DNA from: Argopecten irradians | Taxonomy: Eukaryota; Mollusca; Bivalvia; Pectinida; Pectinidae | Length of the DNA: 64,000 nucleotides | Assembly (NCBI RefSeq): GCF_041381155.1 | Contig: NC_091145.1 | Coordinates: 40,129,882 to 40,193,881, forward strand | Direction of reading: 5' to 3' | Shown here: in pieces, positions 17,140 to 52,685 of the stretch | Numbering within the stretch: position 1 is the stretch's first letter | How the letters are laid out: the number at the start of each line of letters is the position of its first letter | Position numbers and translations under genes: made by a program | The notes under the pieces: generated by a model | Databases searched by the model: none | Told to the model about the DNA's origin: nothing | Seen by the model: the letters and a program-made list of their open reading frames with translations, nothing else

Positions 17140-17268
17140 GTAACAGGAGAGGAGAAAATGTAGCGGCCAGACCGGGATTCGATCCCGGGACTCTCCGAAC
17201 ACTAGCCGAGTGCTCTACCGACTGAACTACCTGGTCATCGATAATCGACCCAGTCCAGTCCCGCTACA
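17140..17268 (-). mobile_element. tRNA-Thr-like element (copy 3, best preserved)
   Basis: The reverse complement reads GACCAGGTAGTTCAGTCGGT, then AGAGCACTCGGCTAGTGTTC, a T arm CCGGGATCGAATCCCGG, and TCTGGCCGCTACA. A tRNA cloverleaf can be drawn. The acceptor stem GACCAGG against TCTGGCC has one mismatch and a G-T pair. The T stem is perfect, and the anticodon position reads AGT (Thr). It is bounded by the same TGTAGCGG/CCGCTACA pair and TTTTCTCCTCTCCTGTTAC flank as copy 1. A transcribed tRNA gene cannot be excluded, but the shared flanks favour a dispersed element. Confidence 0.7.
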
Positions 17269-21619: not shown

Positions 21620-23570
21620 CTAGTGGGAATAACATCCGGAAAAATTAATCTCTTGTTGAGATCTACCTCCAGCCTCCAGTCCCCTGCCTGGCTGATAATA
21701 GCGGTTGATTCCTCAGATCTGGATGTCCTTGTTTCACCTTACATTACAAACCTAATCTGCGTATATTTGGACCTTGGTTGACTGGACCTGACACTCTTCC
21801 GTTCTTTCTCCAAAAGATCAGCCAGCTCCCTAAGGACTTGGTTGTGGCGCCACCTATATCTCCTCTGTGACAAGGCCACATGGCAGGTGGTGAGTATGTG
21901 TTGGAAAGATTTCTGTCCAGGATAGAACCCGTGGTTCTGTGTCCCACTTTGTCCAGGCCCCCTGAACATCCAGTTCTACTACTGTGGTCTGTCTTATTCC
22001 TCTTCTTCCCTACTTCTTATATCCTTCTGTACCAATGAAAGCCTGTGATATCAGCTTTCTTCCAGAGGGTGTGTTTTGATGTCCCTAGGCCCTGTCTTCC
22101 TACTGAAGTTGTTCGCACAATATCTTTGTGACGCAACCGTCTCTCCGCTTCGACTGTCTTGTATGCTGACCATTTTCTGCCAGTGGGTACTTTTACACCT
22201 GCTAGCTGCACCTTGTCATCCTTTGACTCTTTTAAGGTCATGATGAGTCTTCCCTTGCCTGTTTTGAATTCTTCAACTAATAAAGAGAGAGGAAGTTGGA
22301 GTTTTGCCTTTCTGCTGTATAGACTACCAACCACTTCCTCAGGTGCCGATTGATGATTCGCTCCATTCTCTCCCCCGTTGAAGTTGAGATCTCATAGAGC
22401 ATCAGAGGCCAGGCTATGTGTGGCAAGAGACCATTCTGATACATCCAGGCTTTGAACTTTCCTGGTAGACCTATTTTGTCTATACGTCTCATTCCTTCTT
22501 GGACCTGTTCAATTCTTCTGATGTAGCCTTTGTCTCCTAGTGATTCATTAAACCACTTGGAATTGCCTGGTGTTTCTTCTCTTCTTTATTATGAGAGATC
22601 TTTACTTCCTGGGTTTGAAGGTCATTCTTTCCCAAGATGCTGTTTCTTCTAGGGCTGTCAGTATCCATCTTGCCTGAACATGGGTGTCTAGTGATGGTCA
22701 GATCATCCATAAAGCCTCTGTTTGGAGGCTGCCTGATGTTACTGGATGTCTTTGGGCCTCTTGTCTTCCTTTCTCCAGCTCGGATGATCATGTTCATACC
22801 CATTACGAAGAGGATAAATGAAATGGTACACCCACTTCCTTTTGCAGCTTGTAGAAGTTGTAAATGTCTTGGTTGTAAAGCGAAGATGTATTCTGCTGAA
22901 GTAGCTTTAGATCAGTCTTCTGAAGTGCTCTGGAATATGGTAGTGTTCCAAGGCCTCCTGTATTAGCATATGTGGGATGGTTCCATATGTGTTTGTAAGA
23001 TCCAATCATACACAGAGTGGTCTTTCTTGTTGACCTTGGCTTCCCTGATTAGTTGCGTTATGATGCTGGTATATGGTCTATGCACACTGAGAGTCCAGGA
23101 ATTCATCCCTTCTGTACCGGTGCATCAATATACTGGTTCTCTGTCATGTATGTTGTAGGCCTCCTTGCTAGAACAGAGAAGAATATCTTCCCTTCTACGT
23201 TCAGTAATGAGATGGTGCGAAACTGATTGATGCACTCATTATTGATTTCCTTTGGTACGAAGCAGTCCTCAGCCTTTTGCCAGCAAGATGGTATCTTTCC
23301 TTCCCTTGATAATTATGATGCGACTTTCAGTAGCATCCATATATGCCTCAAAATCTTCAGACAGTTCTTGAAGACCTTGTAAGGGATTCCACTGGGCCCG
23401 GGTGCTGATCTTGATCTAGCTTTCTTGACAATCTCTTGGACCTCCTTCCTTGATCAGTGCTCCAGATAACTTTTTTGACCTGGGAGTTTTGTAACCCTCT
23501 GACAAAGGGCAAGGAGTTTTCAAGTCCTTCCTCTCCTCTTTTTCCTTTGCCGTCGCCTGATTGCTTTGGT
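21620..23570 (-). pseudogene. R2-like non-LTR retrotransposon, RT to partial endonuclease (broken)
   Basis: Reading the minus strand, it begins with an RT segment carrying SAPGPSGIPYKVFKNC (near 23400-23360). RT palm pieces follow, including GFMDDLTIT (22694-22720), which is the catalytic x-Asp-Asp motif. A thumb region KAWMYQNGLLPHIAWPLMLYE (about 22450-22390) and a KTGKGRLIMTLKESKDDKV linker come next. The zinc motif is reduced to FQHILTTCHV, because a deletion removed the Cys-Pro-Leu-Cys half. The sequence then stops inside the restriction-like endonuclease domain at about 21620 (IFPD). Several frameshifts and stops are present. The copy at 51263-52685 supplies the missing end and confirms the reading. 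Confidence 0.75.
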
Positions 23571-26129: not shown

Positions 26130-27187
26130 TTGTACGCTGCTTATCTAGAGCACTGCTTGATGGTTCCTTGCTGTCCAATGGTATCCCTGGTTCTGGCATT
26201 GCTTCTATTCTTTCACATGGGCCTAGTGGTCTCCCTTGTTCTGCATCACCATGTGTTTCTGATAGGTGTCTCTCTACCTCCTCTCTAGAACTCTTCAGCA
26301 ACCCTCACTTAGACCCTTTCAGTACTAGTGTTGCTATGAACCTAGCCCTCTTTTACCCCTCTCTATTTCCTGGTTTTTTGTATTCTCTCTGCTGTTTCTC
26401 TGTGGAGGTTGTTTCTATTCTCTCTCAGAATAGCACTTAACTTTAAAAAAACCAATCTTCTCCTTGTTTGCTGTCTTAAATTGTTTGGTGGTGATAGTCC
26501 TGATTTCCGTTCGAAGGCTAAATATCTCTTTTTGGCGCCTGTTGTGTGTTACATGTTCATCCTTCCTGCTACCACCTTGCTTTGTTCGAAAGCACTCTAC
26601 TCCCACTGTGTACACTTATGTTGGCAGTGATGTTATCTTCCTGTGTACCTTTCCTACCAATGTCCTCTGCAAGTTCTTATCGAGGTCATTGTCAAATGCT
26701 TCCCACCGTTCTGAAGATTGCCACTGTACTGCCTCCATTGTGGTGTTTATATCTTCCTCCTGGTAAGCACCAATTGGGTTCTGATTACCTGTCTCGGCCT
26801 CAATATAGTCCTGATCCACTTCAATGGGTAAGAGGTCCTCAGCACTGTGGTGTTCTTCCTGGCTGGAGTCCTCCTCCTTCTCATCAGTGTTAACTGTGGG
26901 TTCCTCTTTCCGCTTCACATATCTAAATTTGGTTTTCGCTTCGTGAACCTTTAACCGCTTGATGTTCTTACACACTTTCCCACAGTGAAACTTTATGCCA
27001 TTATTCCTGTCAATGTCCGTTGTAAGAGCCGAGTTGTTGCCGTTGTATCTTTCATCCCCCCCCCCTTCACACCCAAATTTCCAGTCTTTCCTGGATGCCA
27101 TATGTCTTTTCAAATGTCATTAAACTGTTCTTGGTTGTCAGCCAGTCTTCCCTCGCCGCCACTGGTTGCCTAGATAAAATTACCTAA
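26130..27187 (-). pseudogene. R2-like non-LTR retrotransposon, 5' half (broken)
   Basis: The minus strand starts with an untranslated-type leader (about 27187-27115) and then encodes KFHCGKVCKNIKRLKVHEAK, a remnant N-terminal C2H2-type zinc finger with altered residues. An acidic linker (EKEEDSSQEEHH) and a basic helical stretch (about 26615-26415) follow. The pre-RT segment REEVERHLSETHGDAEQGRP then PLGPCERIEAMPEPGIPLDS ends near 26150. This is the expected order upstream of the RT found at 23570-21620 on the same strand. It may be the same copy, split by the DNA at 23571-26129. Stops and frameshifts break the reading frame. Confidence 0.65.
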
Positions 27188-27575
27188 ATACAGCAGTGAT
27201 GGTTTGCTGCATCACCACCGACGACTTCAGCCAAGGCCATCCCTCATTGCGTGTTTCAACCCCTTACTCGGTAAACTCTCAGGATGGGGGGTTCACAGTG
27301 ATGATCAGTCATTGTGCGTCTGTGGTGGGTTTCCAGCTACTGGTGTCCTTCTTCATCCACACCCAGCATGAAGATCGTTCTGCTGCCTTAGCCATTCTCT
27401 GCACTGCTGTCCTTTTGGTCCTGCCCGACAACCCTAATGCAGAAAGCATTCTCCACTCAGACTGTGGGGTGAAGCCTCTGCATCCAACCTCATCAGGGTA
27501 GTTGCATGTATGCCAGCCCTGCTCCCTGCATTCTGTCAGCAATGCCTCATACTTTGTCCTCTTCAAGAGAATCTT
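27188..27575 (-). pseudogene. R2-like non-LTR retrotransposon, 3' end of endonuclease domain
   Basis: The minus strand reads KRTKYEALLTECREQGWHTC through EVGCRGFTPQSEWRMLSALG to the terminal SSWKPTTDAQ stop, then a 3' UTR ending TGTATTTAGGTA. This is nearly identical in protein to the end of the copy at 51961-52575. It abuts, head to tail, the 5' leader of the fragment at 26130-27187. Confidence 0.7.
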
Positions 27576-29862: not shown

Positions 29863-30650
29863 TTTAGGTCACCTGACTGTAGGTCATGGTGACCTATTGC
29901 GATAGTCTTTTGTCCGTCGTTGTGTCTTCTGTCATTCCTTGTATGTAGTCTAAACATTAGAAATATCCCGAACGAATTTGAAAATCAACTTGATCCGACG
30001 ATAATATACGGAGTTATTGCCCTTTGCTCTAATACTTATTATTGGACCTTGTGAATACAATAACTTGATTAGAACTGCACTCAGCTTCATTAAACTTTTT
30101 ATTTAGACTGAAACTGGCAAGATCTCGGGACAAGTTCGAAAATCGACCAGATCAGATTGTAACTTATGGAGTTGCCTTTGTAATCATTGAATATTGTAAA
30201 CATGATAACTTGAGTAAATTTTAGATCAATATATCGATATACCGATATGTATCGGTTTTCAGCAGTGTATCGAATATCCTTCACAAAGTTATGCTCCATA
30301 GTGATGACCACCATTGGAAAGTTTGAGCTTCTAATTTCACTTCAAGATAAAAATATTAAATATAGAATGAAGATCTGACTGTGCATGTACCAAGAGCAAA
30401 ATAGATAATTTTATATTATTTTTTGTGTTAATTAGACATACATATATATACATGATTAAACACCAATTGTTGTTCAAATGATGAGTATCATTTATAGTCT
30501 GTTGGCGGTGGAACATCTTTAATGAAACTTTGTATGTAGACATATTAGATGTATGTTCCTATTTCATGAACAAAAGACATTGGTAAATTACATAACTAAT
30601 TTGTATCAAATATCAGGTGACCGGTAAGGCCCATGGGCCTCTTGTTTTTA
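29863..30650 (+). mobile_element. Hairpin-ended element, GGTCACCTGA family
   Basis: Left end TTTTTAGGTCACCTGACTGTAGGTCATGGTGACC; right end TCAGGTGACCGGTAAGGCCC then ATGGGCCTCTTGTTTTT. TCAGGTGACC (30613-30622) is the exact inverse of GGTCACCTGA (29867-29876), and GGCCCATGGGCC is the terminal hairpin. The right end matches that of 20059-21460 almost base for base, but the core is unrelated to it. Part of the core (30295-30520) recurs at 47065-47360. Confidence 0.75.
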
Positions 30651-31615: not shown

Positions 31616-31618
31616 GTA

Positions 31619-32271
31619 CAGTAAAACTCCTTGGTTAAATGATTTTATCCCCGGGAAATCCCGCCCGTTAACGAAGAAAACAACTTCTGAACAAGCACAG
31701 TGCGGTCATGACCTCACTTCCGCGCACATGTCTGCAAATATCAAAACTGATACTCCGGTAACAAACGGCACTCAGACGACGATTTGATCTTACTAGTAAA
31801 CGGCGTATTCTTCTGCACGTACATAATATTTAGATTGCTTTTAAAATTGCTAGTTGCATTTTATGTTCCAATATAAACAAACGGCGATATCAAGAAGCAG
31901 ACTTGTGGGTTCCTTTTTGTCAATAAACAACTAGCGTTGATAATATGTAAAACACATGTACAGAAGTGAGTTTTATTCACCACAACTTGTAAAACAATAA
32001 CAAAGGTGTACCCATATTATTAATTGATTACCTGTCAGTCGGCAGTTGAGCACCTTACGAAAACATGTGTCCCTATAACAGAATTTGGCAATATTAACGA
32101 GGTCATTATAGTGTTATTTTAATCATTTGTTCCGCGAATGTGATGGCTGATGGCGTTAGACGGGTTTGGCGGTATAACAGGTGTATTGGTATGGAAATCC
32201 ATTCTGAACAAATTCATGGCGATAAGCGGGTTTGGCGGTAAAACTGATGGCAATATAACGGGGTTTTACTG
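31619..32271. mobile_element. Tigger/pogo-like MITE with TA target duplication
   Basis: CAGTAAAACTCC at 31619-31630 and GGGGTTTTACTG at 32260-32271 are inverted ends. TA flanks both sides (31617-31618 and 32272-32273). The inner sequence contains repeated GGCGGTATAAC/GGCGGTAAAAC near the right end and has no transposase ORF. The CAGTAAAAC terminus and TA duplication fit Tc1/mariner superfamily pogo/Tigger elements; the family assignment is inference. Confidence 0.75.
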
Positions 32272-32551
32272 TACATGTATATCCTTTGACATATATTCAT
32301 ATACATAATGCAGTGGTGAGCGCCAAGATCCCTTTGGGAAACTCAAACTCAAGTTTCCTTGACATCTTTAAGCTTCATTAGAGAAAGGAGGAGTCAAGGG
32401 TGTTGCAATTGAATATAGAAACTTTACACTTCCCTTGATATTGTAGATTGAAATAAGATAAAAATTACAATGAAGGAAAGATAAAATTGTTGTTAGTATG
32501 TATTGTTGTTAAAAAGGCATATCTTTAATATCGATCATGATTTGTTGAAAC

Positions 32552-33257
32552 TGTTATGTATGACACTAAATACATGTAGTTATGAGATGGGGGAGGTGAC
32601 TCCTATAGCTTTATTATCAATACATCCTATAAAGGTCATATCATTAATCTAGGTTATAGAACTTTCTAGAATATTGTCATGTATAAACAAATATGTTTGT
32701 AAACATGTTGATTATAAGTAGAGGTCTAGAATGATCTATTTCCAGAAAGTTCTGTGTGTTTATTTGTTTACTGTTTTTAGTTAGATATTTCTAGAAGTAG
32801 AAGGTTCTCCAATATTCTTGAATTAGGGTTTAGCTATATATACTCCAACTGTCCAAAGCTAATCAGAACTGTAATGAGACCTGTAATGAGACATATCAAG
32901 AATTGTACAGTGCCATATTAGATTCTATTGGGAGAGCTATTGTGACTTTATCCGTGGATTATTACAACACTTTGTATGGATTTATTCATATTGCCTGGAA
33001 CTTTACAAATCATCTGTGGACATTCATTTTCCTCCTGGATTTGTGATTATTGTTAATTTGAAACCTGGAAGGATCAAGGATTATTCCAGGACATTCGCAT
33101 ACAGATAAGTAACACTTTAAATCATCGTATTACTCTTGTACCACCACCAATTACTTTAGATATTGTAAACCATCTCTGTATAATATTGTATATATAATTA
33201 AATTGTGTTTTGAATTTAGCTGCTGGTTTCTCATTTCTGTTATTCGTTCATGTAACA
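32552..33257 (+). mobile_element. Solo LTR (Ty3/Gypsy-like), 706 bp
   Basis: It begins TGTTATGTATG and ends CATGTAACA. The TGTTA/TAACA ends are a perfect 5-bp inversion of the TG...CA type. The sequence is flanked by AAAC on both sides (32548-32551 and 33258-33261). Internal order fits an LTR: an upstream region with repeated GAA/TTC boxes, a TATA box TATATATA (32835-32842), and a polyadenylation hexamer ATTAAA (33197-33202) followed by GT-rich sequence. No gag or pol remnant and no second LTR are visible, so it reads as a solo LTR left by recombination. The Ty3/Gypsy assignment is inference from size and the 4-bp duplication. Its right end lies 70 bp before the first coding exon of the TATDN2-like gene, in the same orientation. 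Confidence 0.7.
32659..32842 (+). promoter_or_regulatory. Candidate heat-shock-element cluster plus TATA box in the LTR
   Basis: Heat shock factor sites are alternating GAA and TTC boxes spaced by 2 bp. Three-box perfect sites are seen at 32659-32671 (GAACTTTCTAGAA) and 32740-32752 (TTCCAGAAAGTTC). Two-box sites are at 32789-32796 (TTCTAGAA), 32800-32807 (GAAGGTTC) and 32815-32822 (TTCTTGAA). The TATATATA box at 32835-32842 lies directly downstream. The arrangement resembles a heat-inducible promoter. Function is inferred from motif spacing only. Confidence 0.55.
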
Positions 33258-33326
33258 AAACAGTCTCTTGTGATTAGTTTAAAATGCAAATACAAGAAAA
33301 TAATAAAGTTTTCTTTTTATTCTTAG

Positions 33327-36300
33327 GTCAAAATGAGCTTTACGGTGCCCAAAAGAGCCAAGCGAGAGCCAGGAAGGAGAGTTGGTGGATTAGCAAGGAT
33401 ATTTATAAGGTCTATGAAAGAGCTCAAGGACAATGAACTGGCTAGAGTGTTGAAAAAGGAATCTGAATCCACAAACAAGACAGTCACAGATTGTGTAGGA
33501 GGTACCAAGGTAAACAATGACTCCAAGGCTCTCTCACACCAAAACCACAGAAAGCTACCGGAACACGCAAGTCTGCACAAGTCCAAAACAGAGGATAATA
33601 TATGGTCATCAACCAATGATTTAACCTCAACTAATGGCAAAAAAGAGGAGGGAACAGGAAGAAAGACTTCTGAAGATAACAAGTCGCTTCCTAAGGACCA
33701 CAACGGTAAAGGGGATGGGAGTGCAGCTGCAGAATCTAAACAAGTGGGAAATGATTTTGGCATGAAAAGGAACTATTCTAAAGAGGACGATATCTCAGCC
33801 GCACATCATGAGGAAAATTCATTAACTACAGAAAGGTCAGTCAGTCCTTTGTCAAAAGCTTCCAAAGTGGCAAACAAAGAAAGTTATTCTGAAGGCAATA
33901 AATCTACAATAGCTGACATTAAAAGTAAGAGAGGGGGTGCTTCCACATCAAGTAAATTGTTTACAGAAAGTATAAAGATCAACTGCCAAGATGGACATTC
34001 TTGTTTACCAAAGCATAGGCATAGACCTTACAGCCAAAGAAGACACTCCAACAGTTCCAGGGAGAGAGATGTAGAGAAGCTGGAATCTGAAGACTGGAGC
34101 TCTGATCTTCTCGAGGTTGAGGGTAGGGGAGGGAATTTACACCACGCAGATACAACTGAACAGAATATTGTACATCTGTGTATGGAACAGAAATGTAATG
34201 ATGGAAATGTCAAAACCATAGAAAAAACCGCTAACAGTGGAAACAACTGTAATAAAGCAGACGAGAGAGCATCAAAAGATGTCAGTGAAGTTATAGGAGG
34301 TGATGGTACTGAAGAGAATACAAGTCAGAAGTGTAGAAGTAGTTCAGATCAACAAACATGTAAAGAGGATGTGAGTCCTGAAAGGAAGCAAATCAGGAAT
34401 CAACCAAATGACAGTAGTCATGTTCTCACAAAATCATTGAGCTCCGATGTGTCGGCAGAGAAAACTGATGACAATGAAATGAACTCTGGTCAAGGTTTGG
34501 AAAAGGGTCATGTTGTTACTGAGAACTTTGATCAAAGGCTAAAAGACAATTTAGATCGTCATCTTGATGACAAGGTTTCAGCAATGCTGCATAATTTCGG
34601 TGAGGTTGACAGTGAGCAGACTCATGTCAAAATTACATATACTGACATTCAAGTGTTCCCTGAATCAACAGGTTCCAATGATAGTGAAGGTTTAGAAAAA
34701 GGTGATTATAGGGAAGATAAGCTGAAAAATGTGGCAATGAAGGCTGATGAGGGTCATGAAAAACGCAAATTTGAAAAGCAAGAAAATACAGAGATAAAGA
34801 AAGAGGAGAGATATAAATCATGTGTACTTGAAAAGAAAGAAACTGTAGAGATGAAGATTGATGAGAGTTGTGAAACACAAACATTTGAAAAGCCAGAAAC
34901 TACAGAGATAAAGAAAGAGAGGTATAAAATAAAAACATTTGAAAAAAAAGAAACTGAAGATTCCTTACTTGTTCGCTCAGAGAAAAATTCATTGCAACAG
35001 TTGGAGGAAGTTTGTGAGGAGGAGAAAAACAACCATAATTCAATCGGACCAAAATGTGTAGCGGAAAACGCAGAAATATCCAAACCTGGAGAGAAACCAG
35101 AAATACAAGACTATTGTAAGGACAATCAACATTCTACACAAACTGTTACATACTGTGATAGTACATGTACAGGAGACAGGGATGAGGATAAAAAACAGAC
35201 TGACAGGAACGGAGCGCTTCCCCTCTGTGGGGACAATCAACATTCTACACAAACTGTTACATGCTGTGATAGTACAGGAGACATTGATGAGGATAAAAAA
35301 CAGAATGACAGGAAAGGCGCGCTTCCTCTCCATGTCCCTGTCTGTGATGTTCCATTTGTTTATAACAGACTAAAGAACACTGGCACAATGTCTGGTTCAG
35401 ACAACTCTTCAAATTTTTCTTCAAAGAAAAATTTTGACAAATCGGATTTGATCCCGAAAGTAGAATGGAGGAAACCTTCACCTTGGAGAGAGAATTCATC
35501 TGCTAGTTCAGACAGTTCTTACACTGCGAGGAGCTCAAGGCCAAGGCCAAAGAAACCAAAGAGAAAGTTTAAACATACAAAGAGCATGGCCAGAGGGCAC
35601 ACCTTAACAGTATCTCCTATATCAACACCACTAGCTGGATCACCGTCCATCTCTCAGAACGTCCGGGGGGAGAAACAGCCAAATACAAAATCTACCTACA
35701 ATAGCATGATTCACTCTAAGGTTGAGGCTATGGCGAAGGAGATGAAGGCCAAGGTTCTCACACCACCAGACAGTAAAGCTAGACAAATGGTGTCTAAGCC
35801 TACTATGTACAGAGACAGTCTTAGAGCCATGAAGCAGGTCAGGGAGGAAAATGATCCTTGTCATCAAATTCCCCTTGAGCAGGAGAAAAAAGATACTTCA
35901 AGAACGAAACTCAACATGCTTTCACAGGTCAGCTCAGATCGAGAAAGTTCAGAATCCACTGGATGTGAATATGTAGATTGTATTTCTGATTCAGCCCAGG
36001 AGGATAGTACAGAGTTTGGAAGTTTCATTGAATCAGTTCAAAAGGAAGGTACAGAGCGTAGCAGAAGTTTTACTGAATTATTACAAAAGGAGGTTACGGA
36101 GCAAAGTAGAAGTATTTCTGTATCAACACAAAAGGAAAAAAAGGAGTACAGTAGACGTATTTCTGTATCATCAGAAAAGGAAATAACTGGTTGCGGTAAT
36201 ACTAAATTGACAGAAAGTTTGGGTTCAAAGAGCAAATCTAATGTCATCCTTGTTCAACCTAAAAGCTCTGATCAAAGAAAGGAGAAAGCTTATGTCCATG

Positions 36301-39300
36301 TAATTAAAGCACAAGTGAGCTCTGAGCCACAACTTTCAGATAACCAAAGATACGCCTGTCGTCATAGACATAATGAACATTCTCAAAAAGAGGAAAGTAT
36401 ATCAGGGAAGTGTTTTAGAAATTCAAAATTCAAGGAGCAGCATAGAGGTGAAATAAGACATCAGGAAATATCAGGAAACAAGGCACATCTAGGATCTAAA
36501 CATGGAGAAAAGTTGCAGTCAAAGAATGTTGAATCACAGAACATTGTTAATGCTAGGCATGACACGACTATTCAGTCTACAGATAAATGTGATCCTAGCC
36601 ATCAAAGAGATTCTACAGAGTTACAGGATCACATCAAAGGGAATCATCGAAATACTGGCAAACCCTTGGAACAACAAAATTTTGAGGGGAGGCATACTCA
36701 AATTTTAGAATCTACTGGTGATAGTAATATTTTACATCTTGGAAACTCTGGTGACTTGTCAAAATCTGAAGGACATTCTACTAGAAAAAAGGAGCAAGTA
36801 TCTGAACGTGAAAATGATTCGGATAACATAAGGCATGTGAACTTGTCCAGTAATTCAGAGAGTGAAGGACAAAGCAGTCCTAGAGGTCAGGACAATTTAT
36901 GTTGTACAAGGACAAAAACCTCGGTCAGCAATGGTAGCAATATTTCCGGGAATATACAGCGAGGACACATCTCCCGATGGAGCAATAGCTTCAACAATAG
37001 ACAGGGCAGTCATATAAATAGTTCGGAAAATGGAATCAAGGTCACAGAACATCCAAGTCATACTGCATTACACCTCAACAACCAGGACACCATCAGAGGT
37101 CAAAATAGGTCAGAAAATTTACAATCAACAAACATCAGGGAGGACAATGTAAATCAAGACTATAAAAAGACAAGGTCTTTTATACTGGACAACTCCTCTC
37201 AAGGTCATAATAGGAATGGGCTTAATAGACAGAAGGATTCTTCCCAAGGTCAAAATAGGTCAGAGTCTGTAAGACAGGACAACTTACCTCAAGGTCACAG
37301 TAAGTCAGAGCGTTTTAATCAGGACAACCGATCTCAAGGTCACAGCTGTTATAGGCCCACAAGGCAGGAAGATTCATCTCAAAGTCACAATAGGACAGAG
37401 TCTGTAAGACAGGACAACTTACCTCAAGGTCACAATAAGTCAGAGCGTTTTAATCAGGACAACTTACCTCAAGGTCACAATAAGTCAGAGCGTTTTAATC
37501 AGGACAACAGATCTCAAGGTCACAGCTGTTATAGGCCCACAAGGCAGGAAGATTCATCTCAAGGTCACAATAGGACAGAGTCTTTAAGACAAGACAACTT
37601 ATCTCATGGTTGCAATAGGACAGAGGTACATAAGCATGGCAGTTACTTCCAAACTGATAAAAGTTCAGAATCAGGACGGCTAGAAAGCTCATTACAACAT
37701 AGCCATGTGGAAACTTCAATTAAAAAAAGTTCTATGATCGATAATGGGAAGGACATCGTACGCTGTCAAAGTACTACTGAAAATAGACCTAATAGAATTT
37801 CTGAATCTGGAGCTCAATATGATTTGCAAGATGGTCAACAAAATTGTTCACAGTTTAGGCCTAATCTCCATCCTCATTCTGGGTCAAGGTTTGGTAATGA
37901 AAGATTAGCTGTAGCTGATGGTCTGATACCAGCAGACACCAACTATAACCATGCGAAAACTGTTGATTCTCAGAGGAGACCAGTTAGGTCAGACACCCAT
38001 AACAAAATGGATTCAAAATGCAAGTTACAGAAGCAAGCCGGTTCAATCACTGGACAAAATATACTGAAAGATAAAGCCATTATTTGTGTAGGACTGGAGG
38101 GATCGGATGAGAACTGGGATATAGACCTATTATCTGTGGCTCCATCCATAGATAGTAAAGGTGTAGGTGACAGAGAGAGAAACAGGATAAACGATGTGTC
38201 GGAAACTAGTGTGCTTAAACCATCCACAGATAGTAATGACATCAATGACAAGGGGAAAAACGATGTGTCGGAAACTAGTGTAGTGGAGGGCAAACTAGAT
38301 TCATCCAAGGTATTTGTGAATGGAATGTCACACTGTGTACAACATGGATCCAAGTTCAGAATGGACAATGTTTGCCACAAACATGTAGAGAACTCTGATA
38401 AAGGTATAGGAGAAATAAGTGGCATTTGTTCCTACGACAAAGCTGATACCCAAAAGAAGTGTGAAGTTCAGACAACATCTGATACCTCTGATAGATTTAG
38501 CGGGACATCCTGTAATCGTACAGGACGTGTGGCAATGGATGGTGATAATGGGCATACTGTATATAAGTCTTCTACTGATCAACATCCTAAGCTTACTAAC
38601 CTGCACGAACGGGCAAAGACATCTGATGATTGGAGAGATTCCAGGAAGCTTGATGAAAGATCAAGAAAGTATCAACCATGGGATAGGAAAGACAAGTATG
38701 GGTTAATAGATAATGGATTGTCATCCAAAGACTCCCATACCGGTAATCTGGACAGGGGTAAAACTCCAGCTGTTTATCCCAAACATAGCTCTGTTGAGAG
38801 GAAAGGGACAGACTACCAGAGGAAGTGTCCCTGGTCTGAGGCCCTCAAACAGCCGGACCATGTAATGGAGGAGATAGAAGAAAATTGGGATGCAAATCTA
38901 TTGGATATTGAGGGCATACTTAAAACCCACAGACAGGAGGCTAAAACTGTGGAACAAGTCGTACCAGGTGGACAAGAGTTGTCTAAAACAATGACTAATG
39001 ATCATCAATCAGGGAAATTTACAGGATCTGATCTGAGAACTGGCCATCATCAGCTGGAGGAATGGGAGTCAACTGTGCTTGACTTAAACCTCATTAGTGG
39101 TGTGGACAGGATCAATAGTGATAATGAAGGACTGACTAACAAAGAAAGACATGTGCTTCGTACAGGACAAGTGGGTGAGGCTGATGGGTTGTCAGATTGT
39201 AGTCAACCTGTTTGTAATGTACAGAACGACCAACCCATACATACTGTCCAGGAAAACGAAGGATCTGTCATTCCCCAGTCAGATTGTAGTTTGAGTGAAT

Positions 39301-42300
39301 CTCGAGGAATGGCAGAGTTTGAGGACAACTATACAAGTGATGATGTAATGGACTCCTATGTATTCCTGAGTCAGGAGGAATGTGACACCCGGACATCAAC
39401 TGACCAAGAAATGGACAAATTGTACAACAGACATCCAAACTCTCCTGTGACATTTAGACCCCATGTATCTTCTGACAAGTCAAAGCAAACAAACAATTCA
39501 AGGAATCAGAAGTATTTAAGTAGTGAGATGAGAAATGATTTGCAACCTCCACCAATATATAGAAGGAAGAATAGGCCTCCAGGGTATGGGCCTGAGGAGT
39601 GTGTATGTCCACCTGGCTGTGTCCAGTACTGGACCTGGAGATGCTGCTACTGTCGCTGGGGATGGGAACCCCGTATCTGTGATATTAGGTCAGCACTTGA
39701 CATATCCGACTACTTCTCTCCTCCCACCACCGACGACAAAGGTAACGGTCATCTTCCTTTAATTGTTGACTATGATATTAACTCAAAATTGTCTGCACAG
39801 TTAATTAACTCCAAAGTGGTCGATATACACAGCAGAATGTATATATTATCATTCTACTTCACATTCATTAACTGTAATTCCATGGTGTTGAAATACTTAA
39901 AATAAATCATGTAAAAAGACGCATCATATTTGTAAATTTTATGATATCAATTTTCTATCAGGTAGTGCCTTCTCGGCTGACCTGATGCATACTGAACTCT
40001 TAATGACTGTTCATTTTAGATAGGAAATACTTTAATGTTGGGGGTGGGGCGGGGTAAGTGCTTAGTCATTATACCGTCATGATAAAACAGCATACTTATA
40101 AATGACACACTTACTACTTTGTAGTTCATGTATCATTTGGTTGTTGTCATAATTAGGAAACAAATACTACCATGACAGTATGACTGTTTTCAGTGTTGTA
40201 CTCTTTAAGCGAGTAATATTGATCATGATTATACAGTGTATTGTATTTTACACTTCTATGTATTTTCAGACACGACTGACTTGGGATTACGTATGCGGTA
40301 CAGGCCCCGCGGGATATTGGCCATGGGTCCAAACAGAATTCCTCCTCCACCCAGTAGGGAGCTGTGGAACCAGATGCAGCAGGGAGCTGCCCCAGTATAC
40401 CCCCTTCCTCCTAGGGGCACAGCTAATCCTTACAACAGGGCACCACATCCTCAGCTACCCAGGTCATATCCCTCTGACTCTCGAAAAGTTGTGTGTGACA
40501 TGGGTCGCAGTAATCCATATGGATTATCATCAGTGCAGCATTCTTCAAAAACTGGGGAGCAAAGTGTTTCTAAAGGAAAAACAATCTACAGCTACAATCC
40601 ATCTGAGTATGTGGCCAAAGATCGAATGATGAACAATGGAAATTTAGCAGGGAAACAACAAACTTTTAGTTGTGGAGAACTAATGTGTGAAACAAATGGG
40701 TTGAGCTCAGACGATCTGCAAGATCTACAACTCAACAGTCCTAAGCTGGTAGACTATGGCTTCAGTGAAACGGATGATTCTGAGGAGGAGAAGAAAGAAT
40801 CAAAGTCCAGAGTTGTTTTGTTTGGTAAAGATGACCAGGACAGTGATTGCTCTAGTGAGAACAAGAGGAAACTAGATCAGGAGGATCAAGACGAGAATAA
40901 CAAGGAGGATGTCACTTCAAAGAGGAGGCATGTATTGCCTCCCAGCAACATTTATCATTTTATAAGGCACTCAGTAAAAACTGAACAAAGTACAACAAAA
41001 GAGCCGGAGAAAAAAACGACTGCCTATGTTCCTCCCCATAGACGTCAAACAGTAGAACTTCCGGACTCTTCCCATAGGGACAGTCCAAGCAAACCAGAAA
41101 GGAAGAAACAGGCCACACCCAAAGACTATGATTTAAATGTTTCGTCTCCGACTAGTAAACCAAGTCCTAGTCCAGGATCGTACCCTTGGACACCATTCTG
41201 GGCGAGCCCTCCTCATCCAATGACTGTACCTGTATCGCCCTTGTACGGTTACCACCAACCCCCCTGTCCTTACCCACCTGGCTACTATTACCACCCAACA
41301 GACTGGTACCATGGTAACTCGGCTGGCGAGTCGTATGGTGGAGCTTACCCACAGACGACTCGCACCCATTCCAACAACAGTACAGCTGTGAAAACATCAA
41401 CTTCATCTCCAACTGCAACCAAGGAAAATCTTCAGACAGATGTCAAAAGTCCTGAACGGCTAGTGTTACCACCAAGGATCAAGTTCTTGGAGAGGACTCG
41501 ACTTTTAGGCCATAGTACGGATTCAGAAAGTAGCTCATCATTTCCATTGGTTGACTGGAAGGCAAATTTCAAGGAGAAATGTAAACGTTACTGTGGAACT
41601 TTCATTGACTCCCATTGCCATCTGGATTTCCTGTTTAACCGTCAATCGTACAGAGGTACCTGGTCTAAGTACAAGATTTTACATGAGGCTACCATGCCTC
41701 ACAGTTTTGAGGGATGTGTGGCTGTTTTCTGTCACCCTAGCAGCTTCAGATCAGAAGGTAAGCACTGTGTCAATCAAAATAGGGCAGTTATCAGAAGCAG
41801 CTGTATAGGTTGTTAAAATGGGATTTATTAATGATACTTTTACACAACCTTTGAATATTTGACATTTGGTTGACTAGTACAATTTGTCTGATGAAGGTTT
41901 TAGGACATATTTTAAAACTCAGTGAGACATTACACAATTAATTAAATGTTTACTATAAATTCAACCCAAAGAAACAAAGCCATTTGTATTTCTCTGATAA
42001 GTTCCAGTGTAATTCAGTTCCTTTGAAACTGTTTCTGCTTATAACTAAGTGATACAAATACCATTGATTTTAAAGATTATATTTATATTTCAATTAAATG
42101 TCATGTTGAATGTTCATGGAAAATGACTGTAAAACATGTGTTACAGATGATGTATAGAAAAGTATCAGTTTTCTTTTGTAATTTTTTATGAAAAAAAAAT
42201 CCAACATTTACATAAAGATTAAAGTAGTAGGATAATGCTTTTCTTTCTGCGAACTTCCACCCTATAACGGAGTTGTTTTTCAGGACTGTGGAGAGATATT

Positions 42301-45176
42301 GCCCTAGAAGAGGATGTCTGGTTAGCGTTCGGCTGCCACCCTAAAAATGCTACCGAGTTCTCGCCCCGCGCTGAAGAGGGACTGCTCCGCTGTCTGCAGC
42401 ACAAGAGAGTTGTGGCTTTGGGAGAGATTGGTCTTGACTACTCAGGCATGTATGTGTACTTATTACTACTATGTCTCTAACTAATACATAGAATGTTTGA
42501 TTAATGTGACCAAAGTTACAGCACCAGTACTGTATGGTTGTATACTTATTACTACTATGTCTCTAACTAATACATAGAATGTTTGATTAATGTGACCAAA
42601 GTTACAGCACCAGTACTGTATGGTTGTATACTTATTACTACTATGTCTCTAACTAATACATAGAATGTTTGATTAATGTGACCAAAGTTACAGCACCAGT
42701 ACTGTATGGTTGTATACTAATTACTACTATGTCTCTAACTAATACATAGAATGTTTGATTAATGTGACCAAAGTTACAGCACCAGTACTGTATGGTTGTA
42801 TACTTATTACTACTATGTCTCTAACTAATACATAGAATGTTTGATTAATGTGACCAAAGTTACAGCACCAGTACTGTATGGTTGTATACTAATTACTACT
42901 ATGTCTCTAACTAATACATAGAATGTTTGATTAATGTGACCAAAGTTACAGCACCAGTACTGTATGGTTGTATACTAATTACTACTATGTCTCTAACTAA
43001 TACATAGAATGTTTGATTAATGTGACCAAAGTTACAGCACCAGTACTGTATGGTTGTATACTTATTACTACTATGTCTCTAACTAATACATAGAATGTTT
43101 GATTAATGTGACCAAAATTACAGCACCAGTACTGTATGGTTGCTAATATTTGTTTGGCTTTAAATTTCACTAAATTTGCGTACTCTACCTATTCTGTAAA
43201 ATTAATACCTTGCAAAATTTTTCAAAAGTCATGGATTTACACAACATCTGCTGCTATATAAATTTCATTTTAAAATGCTGTACAAGCGGATTATTCACTA
43301 ATGTAAAGCCCTGTGATTAAGTTCTGAACAGTAAATCAGAAAATTTTGAACCTGCGAATTTAACAAATATAGAGTGTTTAATTGTGTAGAGACAGTCAAA
43401 TGTAGGTTGAGTGTCACCTACAGGCAACAACAAATTTCCATAAATGAAACAATAGCTTTCAGATACACAGGTACACATTGATAGACATGACAAAATACAA
43501 GCTCTAACAATAGATATTGTAACCTATCAGATATATGAATTACATTTAATAAATGTTTTTGAACTATTGCATGTTCAAAGACCGATAGTTTATCATTCAG
43601 TTTTTTTCTAGATTTAAACAACATCAAGCTATACAGAAGAGTGTGTTTATCAAACAAATCCAACTGGCCCTGGAGATTAACAAACCACTTGTGATACACT
43701 GCCGGGACGCAGAGGAGGATTGCCTTCAGATCTTAGAAAAGGTTGGTTAATTTATAGATGATTTATGTATTTATCTGAATTGTTTTATGTGTAAATGTTC
43801 AATTAATGTACTTGACAACATGAAGAAACAATGGAAAATGTATCACATTCTCTTTTGATTGTTCAGAAACCACACTGAATTACAGAAAGATATGTTAACT
43901 CTATTTACAGACTGTGCCCCGAAACTACAGAATCCATTGTCACTGCTTCACCGGAAACTACGAGTCGGCCAAGAAATGGTTGGACCTGTTCCCTAATCTC
44001 TACATCGGTCTGACCCCATTGGTGACCTATCGTACAGCTACCCCCACTCATGAAGTGGCTCGCTTCATACCCCTAGATAGACTCCTGCTGGAGACAGATG
44101 CTCCTTACTTCATACCAAGGAAGGTAGGATTTACTGGCAAATTAACCCTTTTGTACTGCTCAATTTTGTAATAAATGTTGAGGTCACATGAAAGAAAAAA
44201 TATTCTATCGATTTAAATGAAAATTGCTATTGCCAGAGAAGCAAAAAAAAAAAAAAAAAAAAAAAGAGCGTTTTGGCTTATTTTCATTAATCAGAAGTCC
44301 TAATGTCATGATATTAGCCAGTGACAACAAAACAGTGCCAAAGTGACAGAAACAACTACTTCTCAATATCCAAAAAGCCAAGAAAATTAGGCCAGTTCTT
44401 CAAAAGATGATCGTTAATTCCTTTTCAATGACAGATTTTGATAAAAAAAAAATCTTTGCAAGCTTGACAAAGTTAATGAGTTTATGCCTTGGAGTGTCAT
44501 TCACATAACAGTATTTCCCCTTACTCTCTCTCTACTAGTTATACCTCACTCAATGGACTAAATTTGTCATAGACATCCTGGGGTGAAAGGGATAATTATA
44601 AACTTTGATCCTCGGTCACTGTAACCAGGAAGGACAGGGTCTTATAACAGAGCAAAGGTCTTCTGCTGAAGGGAGGAAATCTATTGGTTCATATTGGTCT
44701 GTGACATCATGGGGTAAAGGAAGCCAATTTTACATAAATTACAGTCATATACACATGAATCTTCGTCACTATACAACAGGATATTGATGTTTTAAGCATC
44801 AAAAAGTTGTCAAACATTATTTCATTGGCACCAGCAATAACAGAGGTCAGTCAAAGCTAATGTGCAATTTGTATGAAATGGGTTGAAAATTGTTGGCAAA
44901 AACATGAGGGTACCGTTATTGGGGGAGGCCCCCCTAAATAGGGAAAATATGGTACATAAAAATGTAGTATTTAGGCATGCCTTGATTGTAATTTAATAGT
45001 TGGTAAAGCACTGACTTTTACATTTCAAATTGCAGTTTCCAAAGGAAGATGTTCAGTTTTCACACCCGGGGATGGCGATTACCGTGGCAGAACATGTGGC
45101 GTTTCTGAAGAGATGTTCAGTGACAGAAGTATTGCATGCCTGTCGACAGAACACACGGACGATGTACGGGGTATAA
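33327..45176 (+). CDS. TATDN2: TATDN2-like TatD nuclease with giant disordered N-terminal region
   Basis: Coding exons are 33333-39741, 40270-41757, 42284-42449, 43612-43741, 43911-44123 and 45036-45176, with the first exon starting at 33327. All introns have GT/AG borders and the phases join to one frame of 2849 codons including the stop. ATG lies 6 nt after a TTCTTAG acceptor, so 5' UTR exon(s) lie upstream. Residues 1 to about 2540 are low-complexity Ser/Lys/Glu/Asn-rich, with a basic patch RPRPKKPKRKFKH (about residue 736, NLS-like). They also contain 15-residue tandem repeats (about 1287-1431) and a Cys/Trp cluster near 2090. A Pro/Tyr-rich segment lies in exon 2. The C-terminal ~300 residues are a TatD metal-dependent hydrolase: FIDSHCHLDF, LGEIGLDYS, VIHCRDAEED, HCHCFTG and LLETDAPYF supply the expected His, Glu and Asp ligands, so activity is likely. 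Human TATDN2 (about 760 aa) has the same layout but a far shorter N-terminus; it acts on nucleic acids in the nucleus and has been linked to R-loop processing. Confidence 0.9.
37195..37625 (+). repeat. Coding 45-bp (15-residue) tandem repeats in TATDN2 exon 1
   Basis: There are about ten in-frame units of the QDNLPQGHNKSERFN / QDNRSQGHSCYRPTR / QEDSSQGHNRTESVR type, arranged partly as a three-unit super-repeat that is duplicated (37320-37375 and 37500-37555). Smaller internal duplications elsewhere in the exon are at 34730-34960 (EKxETxEIKKE type), 35121-35330 (DNQHSTQTVT type) and 36010-36180 (QKExTExSRSxS type). Confidence 0.85.
42455..43143 (+). repeat. 86-bp minisatellite, 8 copies, in TATDN2 intron 3
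   Basis: The unit TATACTTATTACTACTATGT...TACAGCACCAGTACTGTATGGTTG repeats with almost no change. Units differ mainly at TACTTATT versus TACTAATT. The array starts about 5 nt inside the intron, directly after the GTATGT donor at 42450, so donor-proximal sequence is part of the first unit. Confidence 0.93.
44243..44265 (+). repeat. A23 homopolymer in TATDN2 intron 5
   Basis: A run of 23 adenines between GC and GAGCG. It could be the tail of a degenerate retroposed insertion, but no target duplication is evident. Confidence 0.8.
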
Positions 45177-51262: not shown

Positions 51263-52685
51263 GCCTGGCCCCTGATGCTCTATATGAGATCTCAACTTCA
51301 ACGGTGGAGAGAATGGAGCGAATCGCCATTAGGAACCTAAGGAAGTGGTTGGGAGTCCCTCCAAGCTTTACTGCAGTAGGCTTATACAGCGGAACGGCAA
51401 AACTCCAAACTTCCTCTCTCTTAATTAATTGAAGAATTAAAGACAGGCAAGGCAAGACTCATCATGACTTTAAAAGAGTCAAAGGATGACAAGGTGCGGC
51501 TAGCAGGTGTAAAAGTACCCACTGGCAGAAAATGGTCAGCATCCAAGGCAGTCGATGAAGCGAAGAGCAGGTTGCAACACATAGATATTGTGGTAACAAC
51601 TGCAGTAGGAAGGCAGGGCCTAGGGACATCAAAACACACTCTCTTGAAGAAAGCTGATATCACAGAAAGGCGGTCATTTGTACAGAAGGATATAAGAAGT
51701 AGGGAAGAAGAAGAAGACAGACCAAAGCAGTGGAACTAGGTGTTCAGGGGGCCTGGACAAGGTGGGACACAGAACCACGGGTTCTATCCTGGACAGAAGT
51801 CTGGAAGTACCCGCAATTCCAACTGCATTTTCTCCTCCGATCTGTGTATGATGTGCTACCAACACCAGCAAATCTTCATAGATGGGACCTTGTGGAAACA
51901 CCAGACTGCCCTCTGTGTGGACAGAGAGGAACTCTCCAACACATACTCACCTAATGTCATGTGGCCTTATCACAGGGGAGATATACATGGCGCCACAACC
52001 AAGTCCTTAGGGAGATGGCTGATGTTTTCGAGAAAGAACGGAAGAGCATCAGGTCCAGTCAACCAAGGTCCAAGCATACGCAGATTAGGTTTGTGAAGGA
52101 AGGTGAAACAAGGACATCCAGATCTGAGAAATCAATCGGAATTATCGGCCAGGCAGGGGACTGGAGGCTGGAGGTAGATATCAACCAGAGATTAAATTTC
52201 CCGGATATTGTTCCCACTAACCTCAGACCGGATATGGTTCTATGGTCACCAGGAATAAAGAAAGTCATTATCGAACTAACAGTCCCATGGGAGGAAAGGT
52301 GCAGTGAAGCACATGAAAGGAAGAGGGCGAAGTACGAGGCACTGCTGACGGAATGCAGGGAGCAGGGCTGGCATACATGGAACTACCCTGTTGAGGTTGG
52401 ATGCAGAGGCTTCCCCGCACAGTCTGTATGGAGAATGCTTTCTGCATTAGGGTTGTCGGGCAGGACCAAAAGGACAGCAGTGCAGAGAATGGCTAAGGCA
52501 GCAGAACGATCTTCATGCTGGGTGTGGATGAAGAAGGACACCAGTAGCTGGAAACCCACCACCGACGCGCAGTGACTGATCATCACTGTGGACCCCCCAA
52601 AGTCGAAACACCCAATGAGGGATGGCCTCGGCTGAGGACGCCGGCGGTGCTGCAGCATACCATCACAGCTGTATTTAGGTAAAAC
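51263..52685 (+). pseudogene. R2-like non-LTR retrotransposon, 5'-truncated, with intact endonuclease-domain frame
   Basis: It starts within the RT thumb (AWPLMLYEISTSTVERMERI-like, frame-shifted) and has a KTGKARLIMTLKESKDDKV linker. A zinc motif CPLCGQRGTLQHILT follows, with a TAA at 51953-51955 just before the last Cys, so the C-x2-C-x7-H-x4-C pattern is kept apart from the stop. After a frameshift, an open frame (51961-52575, 204 codons) carries the restriction-like endonuclease domain, with RPDMVLWS and KKVIIELTVPWEE as the likely PD...E core. It ends SSWKPTTDAQ. RT plus CCHC plus restriction-like endonuclease in this order is the layout of the R2 clade and relatives. The copy is not autonomous: it has a 5' truncation, two frameshifts and a stop. 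The 3' UTR ends TGTATTTAGGTAAAAC. Confidence 0.8.

Follow-up and report, generated by a model that had tools for sequence, protein, structure and literature searches.

Why does a long terminal repeat (LTR) with the outward look of a heat-shock promoter stand directly in front of a nuclease gene, and would such a promoter work for this gene or for the retrotransposon from which it came? The question is raised by a stretch of 64,000 nucleotides from the Argopecten irradians genome, called the window hereafter, in which the first-pass annotation had noticed a solo LTR upstream of a TATDN2 gene and had suggested that it could drive a stress-inducible transcript of that gene. We consider it probable that the LTR was left behind by recombination, that its U3 carries an hsp70-type promoter serving the retrotransposon itself, and that any effect on TATDN2 is incidental. 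The features of the LTR are listed below. The counts refer to a set of 53 family copies with identities of 90.7-98.2%, obtained from 59 searched loci by removing three with matches spanning less than 600 bp and three duplicates.

32548..32551, forward strand: left target site duplication AAAC, flanking the LTR
32552..33257, forward strand: solo LTR of 706 bp, assigned to a Gmr1-like Ty3/gypsy family; 39 further scored places match it at 96-98%; it is neither followed by a primer site nor preceded by a purine tract
32659..32671, forward strand: heat-shock element 1 (HSE1), perfect three-box site GAA-TTC-GAA, intact in 48 of 53 copies
32740..32752, forward strand: HSE2, perfect three-box site TTC-GAA-TTC; three boxes in 31 of 53 copies, the third box, variable within the family, in 32
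32789..32796, forward strand: two-box HSE, in 52 of 53 copies
32800..32807, forward strand: two-box HSE, in 49 of 53 copies
32815..32822, forward strand: two-box HSE, 20 bp before the TATA box (start to start), in 52 of 53 copies
32835..32842, forward strand: TATA box TATATATA, intact in 51 of 53 copies; transcription would be expected to start about 25-30 bp downstream
33197..33202, forward strand: ATTAAA, the LTR's own poly(A) signal, kept in 51 of 53 copies
33258..33261, forward strand: right target site duplication AAAC, flanking the LTR

The coordinates first given for the LTR are exact: its perfect ends, TGTTA at 32552 and TAACA ending at 33257, lie between the AAAC flanks. Its boundaries were confirmed by searching the animal's own assembly (846 Mb in 1508 contigs, the window lying on contig 12) for further copies; among 1444 candidates, 40 were scored including the window LTR itself, and the 39 other places are 96-98% identical to it (rounded), all of them spanning at least positions 1-694 of the 706. 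LTRs labelled as 5' are followed by GGAATTGG, which marks the primer-site side and presumably fits tRNA-Pro, and those labelled as 3' are preceded by a purine tract of the ...GGGGTG type. At 30 fetched loci, the window copy included, the primer-site side follows the LTR in 10 cases, the purine tract precedes it in 13, and neither is found in 7; one locus, L025, has both and was counted among the 10. Exact junctions between LTR and primer site number 80 genome-wide and none in the control. Since the window copy has neither neighbour and is flanked by a 4-bp duplication, it is a solo LTR, as the annotation had it. The six other unlabelled copies include four with 4-bp duplications (L006, L014, L015, L030) and two without a target duplication (L009, L017).

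To what kind of retrotransposon does this LTR belong? A gag piece at locus L020 contains a SCAN domain (PF02023, E 3.6e-13), and SCAN-like capsids in gag are linked to the Gmr1 clade. The middle piece at locus L031 has, after a DTGAS protease-like motif recognized by eye, a single open frame with Integrase_H2C2 and rve, and locus L023 has RVT_1 and RNase H, in different frames, just before the 3' LTR. Taken together, these pieces, which come from different copies and are not joined, place the integrase upstream of the reverse transcriptase. Because this order occurs in a Ty3/gypsy element, and together with the SCAN gag, the family can be assigned as Gmr1-like by domain order; integrase before reverse transcriptase is described as a mark of the Gmr1 clade within Ty3/gypsy in two papers (PMC6238403, PMC8220671), one of which reports Gmr1-like elements from cod, a tunicate and an annelid (PMC8220671). 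The window LTR would thus be what recombination left of such an element.

A SCAN search of the same genome gave 515 candidates, and all the 150 that were scored lay above the cut-off, while the same search of 14 control genomes gave no match. Five of the 150 places were inspected for divergent families: at four of them the LTR is the same one (94-96%) and has its HSEs, and the fifth is a copy lacking the 5' part. Outside the genome, no relative of the LTR was found in phage records, and viral contigs had no match for a TATDN2 exon, two LTR patterns or a reverse transcriptase piece. Six neighbouring LTR pairs on the same strand are 98.3-99.6% identical, and the family must therefore have been active recently; target duplications at these pairs, with flanks read by eye, are 4 bp in three, 5 bp in one and absent in two.

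The cluster of two perfect three-box and three two-box HSEs that had been noticed between 32659 and 32822 is present, and it exceeds chance. Dinucleotide shuffling of the LTR, repeated 5000 times, never yielded two three-box sites and yielded one in 26 cases; five sites of at least two boxes were likewise never obtained, and four such sites were obtained in 6 cases. Over the whole window, three-box sites number four, half of which lie in the LTR, whereas 50 shuffles of the window average 0.74. It is to be noted that the pairing of an HSE with a TATA box is less peculiar by itself, for three more such pairs, spaced 15-30 bp, occur elsewhere in the window when both strands are counted, and two further places have three two-box sites within 200 bp; the unusual part is the set of five sites including two of three boxes.

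The HSEs belong to the family rather than to this copy. An exact pattern of HSE1 and the HSE2 core occurs 884 times (445 and 439) in the 846 Mb and its reversed control not at all; the last 21 bases of the LTR, with up to three mismatches, occur 921 times against 50 for a control; and the exact HSE pair lies upstream of 35 of the 44 exact LTR 3' ends that were picked regardless of HSEs in C1 and part of C2. The HSEs are thus spread across about 900 LTRs. Had the GAA/TTC boxes proved to be poorly conserved among relatives, this would have spoken against the annotation, and the counts listed above reveal good conservation for HSE1 and the two-box sites. Such conservation is largely the youth of the family. 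Among the 29 near copies, the variability of the HSE cores is matched or undercut by 107 of 543 slid controls. Once the third box of HSE2, which varies, is set aside, 45, 114 and 146 of 543 slides over the 53 copies are as low by three measures, and random U3 sites give p 0.008 when minor letters are counted and 0.12 when sites with at least three minor letters are counted. Selection on the boxes is suggestive at most.

Could the HSEs then be inert, that is, chance GAA/TTC palindromes of an AT-rich U3 which only the youth of the family has kept? These weak conservation tests, and the pairs and small clusters found elsewhere in the window, are what such an explanation would predict, but it leaves the five-site cluster, absent from all the 5000 shuffles, and a promoter layout resembling that of the host hsp70 genes to coincidence, and we hold it to be improbable.

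That resemblance comes from 75 HSP70 matches. Five of them span the full profile without a break in the frame, and the roughly 1.2 kb in front of each was read. Four of the five have a TATA box preceded by a two-box HSE, the distances from the HSE start being 23, 23, 23 and 29 bp, and two of these four are an inverted neighbouring pair; the distance in the LTR is 20 bp. The fifth gene has no two-box HSE in its 1.2 kb or so. The final 400 bp of these upstream regions contain 2, 4, 4, 1 and 0 two-box sites, against seven in the LTR if its three-box sites are counted twice. The TATATATA at 32835 and the ATTAAA at 33197 are present where the annotation had put them, and the genome has three matches to the HSF DNA-binding domain. 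Because the HSE cluster is beyond chance, is shared by the family and has a spacing to the TATA box close to that of host hsp70 genes, the LTR looks like a promoter with which HSF would drive the retrotransposon itself. The earlier description of a heat-shock-type promoter thus holds for its anatomy, in the cluster, the hsp70-like distance and the family-wide presence, while activity is the part that is not supported. HSF1 trimers would bind the array near the TATA box as they would in an hsp70-type promoter, and the array would mainly drive transcription of the retrotransposon when the host responds to heat or proteotoxic stress.

Some further observations concern the same U3. At 32752, within the third box of HSE2, 32 of the 53 copies have C and 21 have A, a difference that makes or breaks the box and splits the family; the loci suggest, uncounted, that the split partly tracks the GGAAT and GAAAT types of primer site. 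Forkhead-type sites, GTAAACA at 32699 and TGTTTAC at 32765, lie between and beside the HSEs and may be a second stress input.

That heat-responsive LTRs are known from other organisms, as had been remarked, is borne out by published passages on a plant, a retrovirus and a fungus. The LTR of ONSEN, a Ty1/copia element of Arabidopsis, contains nTTCnnGAAn, a heat response element to which a heat shock factor binds, and it is similarly low in GC and poor in CpG (28% GC and no CG, vs 31% GC and 4 CpG in 706 bp here); ONSEN is, however, a plant copia element with binding and induction demonstrated, whereas the present one is an animal Ty3/gypsy element whose five-site array near a TATA box is predicted from sequence (PMC3907296). 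The LTR of bovine leukemia virus has an HSE in U3 through which HSF1 activates it in reporter assays; it is an animal LTR too, but of a retrovirus with one two-box HSE, whereas the present LTR belongs to retrotransposons and has five sites in some 900 copies (PMC10236774). The LTR retrotransposons TCN3 and TCN12 of Cryptococcus, whose mobility is linked to heat, also have putative HSEs inside their LTRs, but they are fungal and the putative sites are two in TCN3 and one in TCN12 (PMC12810828). Helitrons of Caenorhabditis carry and spread HSEs in an animal genome as well, although they are DNA transposons and the present LTR has its own TATA box and poly(A) signal (PMC6927752). With the Gmr1-like elements, the family shares the integrase upstream of the reverse transcriptase (PMC6238403, PMC8220671); the word 'heat' is absent from the main text of the former paper and 'heat shock' from that of the latter. 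A search of open-licence papers found no report of an HSE-bearing LTR of the Gmr1 clade. Thus, while HSE-bearing LTRs as such have already been described in plant, retrovirus and fungus (PMC3907296, PMC10236774, PMC12810828), this genome would, if the arrays work, offer some 900 HSF-type promoters, nearly identical and of known location, in one animal, a natural test of the interplay among stress, mobile elements and gene regulation. It is this family-level reading, over that on TATDN2, which is the valuable one.

What, then, of the neighbouring gene? Its features are as follows.

33325..33326, forward strand: predicted splice acceptor AG before the first TATDN2 coding exon; pyrimidine fraction 0.74, a value that 4.3% of the AGs in the window reach or surpass
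33327..45176, forward strand: TATDN2-like gene with six modelled coding exons (33327-39741, 40270-41757, 42284-42449, 43612-43741, 43911-44123, 45036-45176)

The end of modelled exon 3 is either 42446 or 42449. The six exons give one open frame of 2848 amino acids, the last part of which is TatD_DNase (PF01026, E 1.7e-62), so that the gene is TATDN2-like as named at first. In medaka, loss of tatdn2 is described to result in more R-loops and DNA damage in germ cells (PMC12709183). Directly after modelled exon 3, at 42448-43263 in a TATDN2 intron, there is an array of 86-bp tandem repeats with copies up to 99% alike.

The LTR does lie directly upstream of the first coding exon in the same direction, as claimed, but at a distance of 69 bp (33258-33326) from the acceptor rather than 70. 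The good acceptor at 33326, with its pyrimidine fraction, suggests that an upstream exon exists. A native first exon was sought upstream, and the best donor-like sites yielded none that is convincing: 30624 lies in a many-copy repeat, 32316 comes just after an element bounded by inverted repeats, and 29073 is no more convincing. As no first exon was found, it is the acceptor from which we place the LTR, as one of about 900 that was inserted ahead of the first coding exon, probably in an intron of the 5' UTR. No empty site in another haplotype was found in the assembly, in which 33258-35300 matches its own place only. As for the repeats touched on here, the many-copy dispersed one spans 29939-30650, has a GGCCCATGGGCC palindrome at 30628, contains the best upstream donor-like site and is, we assume, Helitron-like. 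The element at 31617-32273, 278 bp upstream of the LTR, is bounded by inverted TACAGTAAAAC ends and is likely a TIR transposon or MITE; from 31900 on, it matches many places in the genome at 74-93% among 40 scored of 158 candidates.

If the LTR lies in an intron, it may act on TATDN2 as a weak stress-responsive enhancer, or its poly(A) site may shorten some of the pre-mRNA. Could such a disturbance be the main thing, the ATTAAA of the sense LTR terminating a share of the pre-mRNAs within intron 1, to an extent that stress would raise or lower? The signal is kept in nearly all copies and has T/G-rich sequence behind it. ATTAAA is, however, a weaker poly(A) signal than AATAAA, and the place of the LTR inside the transcribed unit is itself putative. 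A main role of this kind seems unlikely to us, and a major effect of the LTR on TATDN2 is probably absent.

The promoter might also have been co-opted, so that on heat HSF1 would bind the LTR and a TATDN2 transcript would start there, spliced or as unspliced read-through. The orientation, the near acceptor and the intact HSEs and TATA box would suit this, as would the pattern of private changes: there are 8 positions at which the window copy stands apart from every one of the 29 near copies, four of them within 32589-32598, and none of the 8 hits an HSE box, the TATA box or the ATTAAA. Splicing is, however, poorly provided for. The donor that had been suggested near 33109 exists (TAA|GTAACA) but is poor, with a score of -2.65 that 28% of the GTs in the window equal or surpass, and no good donor was found between the predicted start and the acceptor: the best there scores -0.57, the five modelled donors of TATDN2 1.76-6.82 (all scored with a donor matrix). 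Nor is there a clean read-through from the LTR into TATDN2, for an unspliced RNA would contain five upstream ATGs, the last of which opens a frame of 50 codons overlapping the TATDN2 start, and would have to cross the LTR's own ATTAAA. Moreover, the chance that any one gene has a sense copy in the 1 kb in front of it is about 0.0005 (884 matches in 846 Mb), from which about 16 genes, if 30,000 are assumed, should have such a neighbour by chance; where the LTR lies is thus in itself no evidence of co-option. Only position and orientation fit the proposed stress-inducible transcript. An LTR-driven TATDN2 is possible but unsupported, and we give it little credence; if it were true, a nuclease linked to R-loop resolution would become stress-inducible just when the elements become active. 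The widest version, in which HSF1 switches on the whole hsp70-type family of about 900 Gmr1-like LTRs by heat, with heat-responsive promoters sown over the genome and TATDN2 thereby made stress-inducible as the elements activate, is very improbable. Unless transcripts tell otherwise, the copy at TATDN2 is best taken as an ordinary insertion, and the promoter as one that would serve the retrotransposon.

Other repeats are scattered over the window. Pieces at 51280-52682 and in inverted copies at 21621-22399 and 27180-27564 are 88-95% alike, and an open frame at 51961-52575 in the first of them has no Pfam match. Two tRNA-like sequences at 1025-1098 and 17163-17236 (one undetermined, one Thr) lie in inverted copies of 129 bp, perhaps a tRNA-derived SINE.
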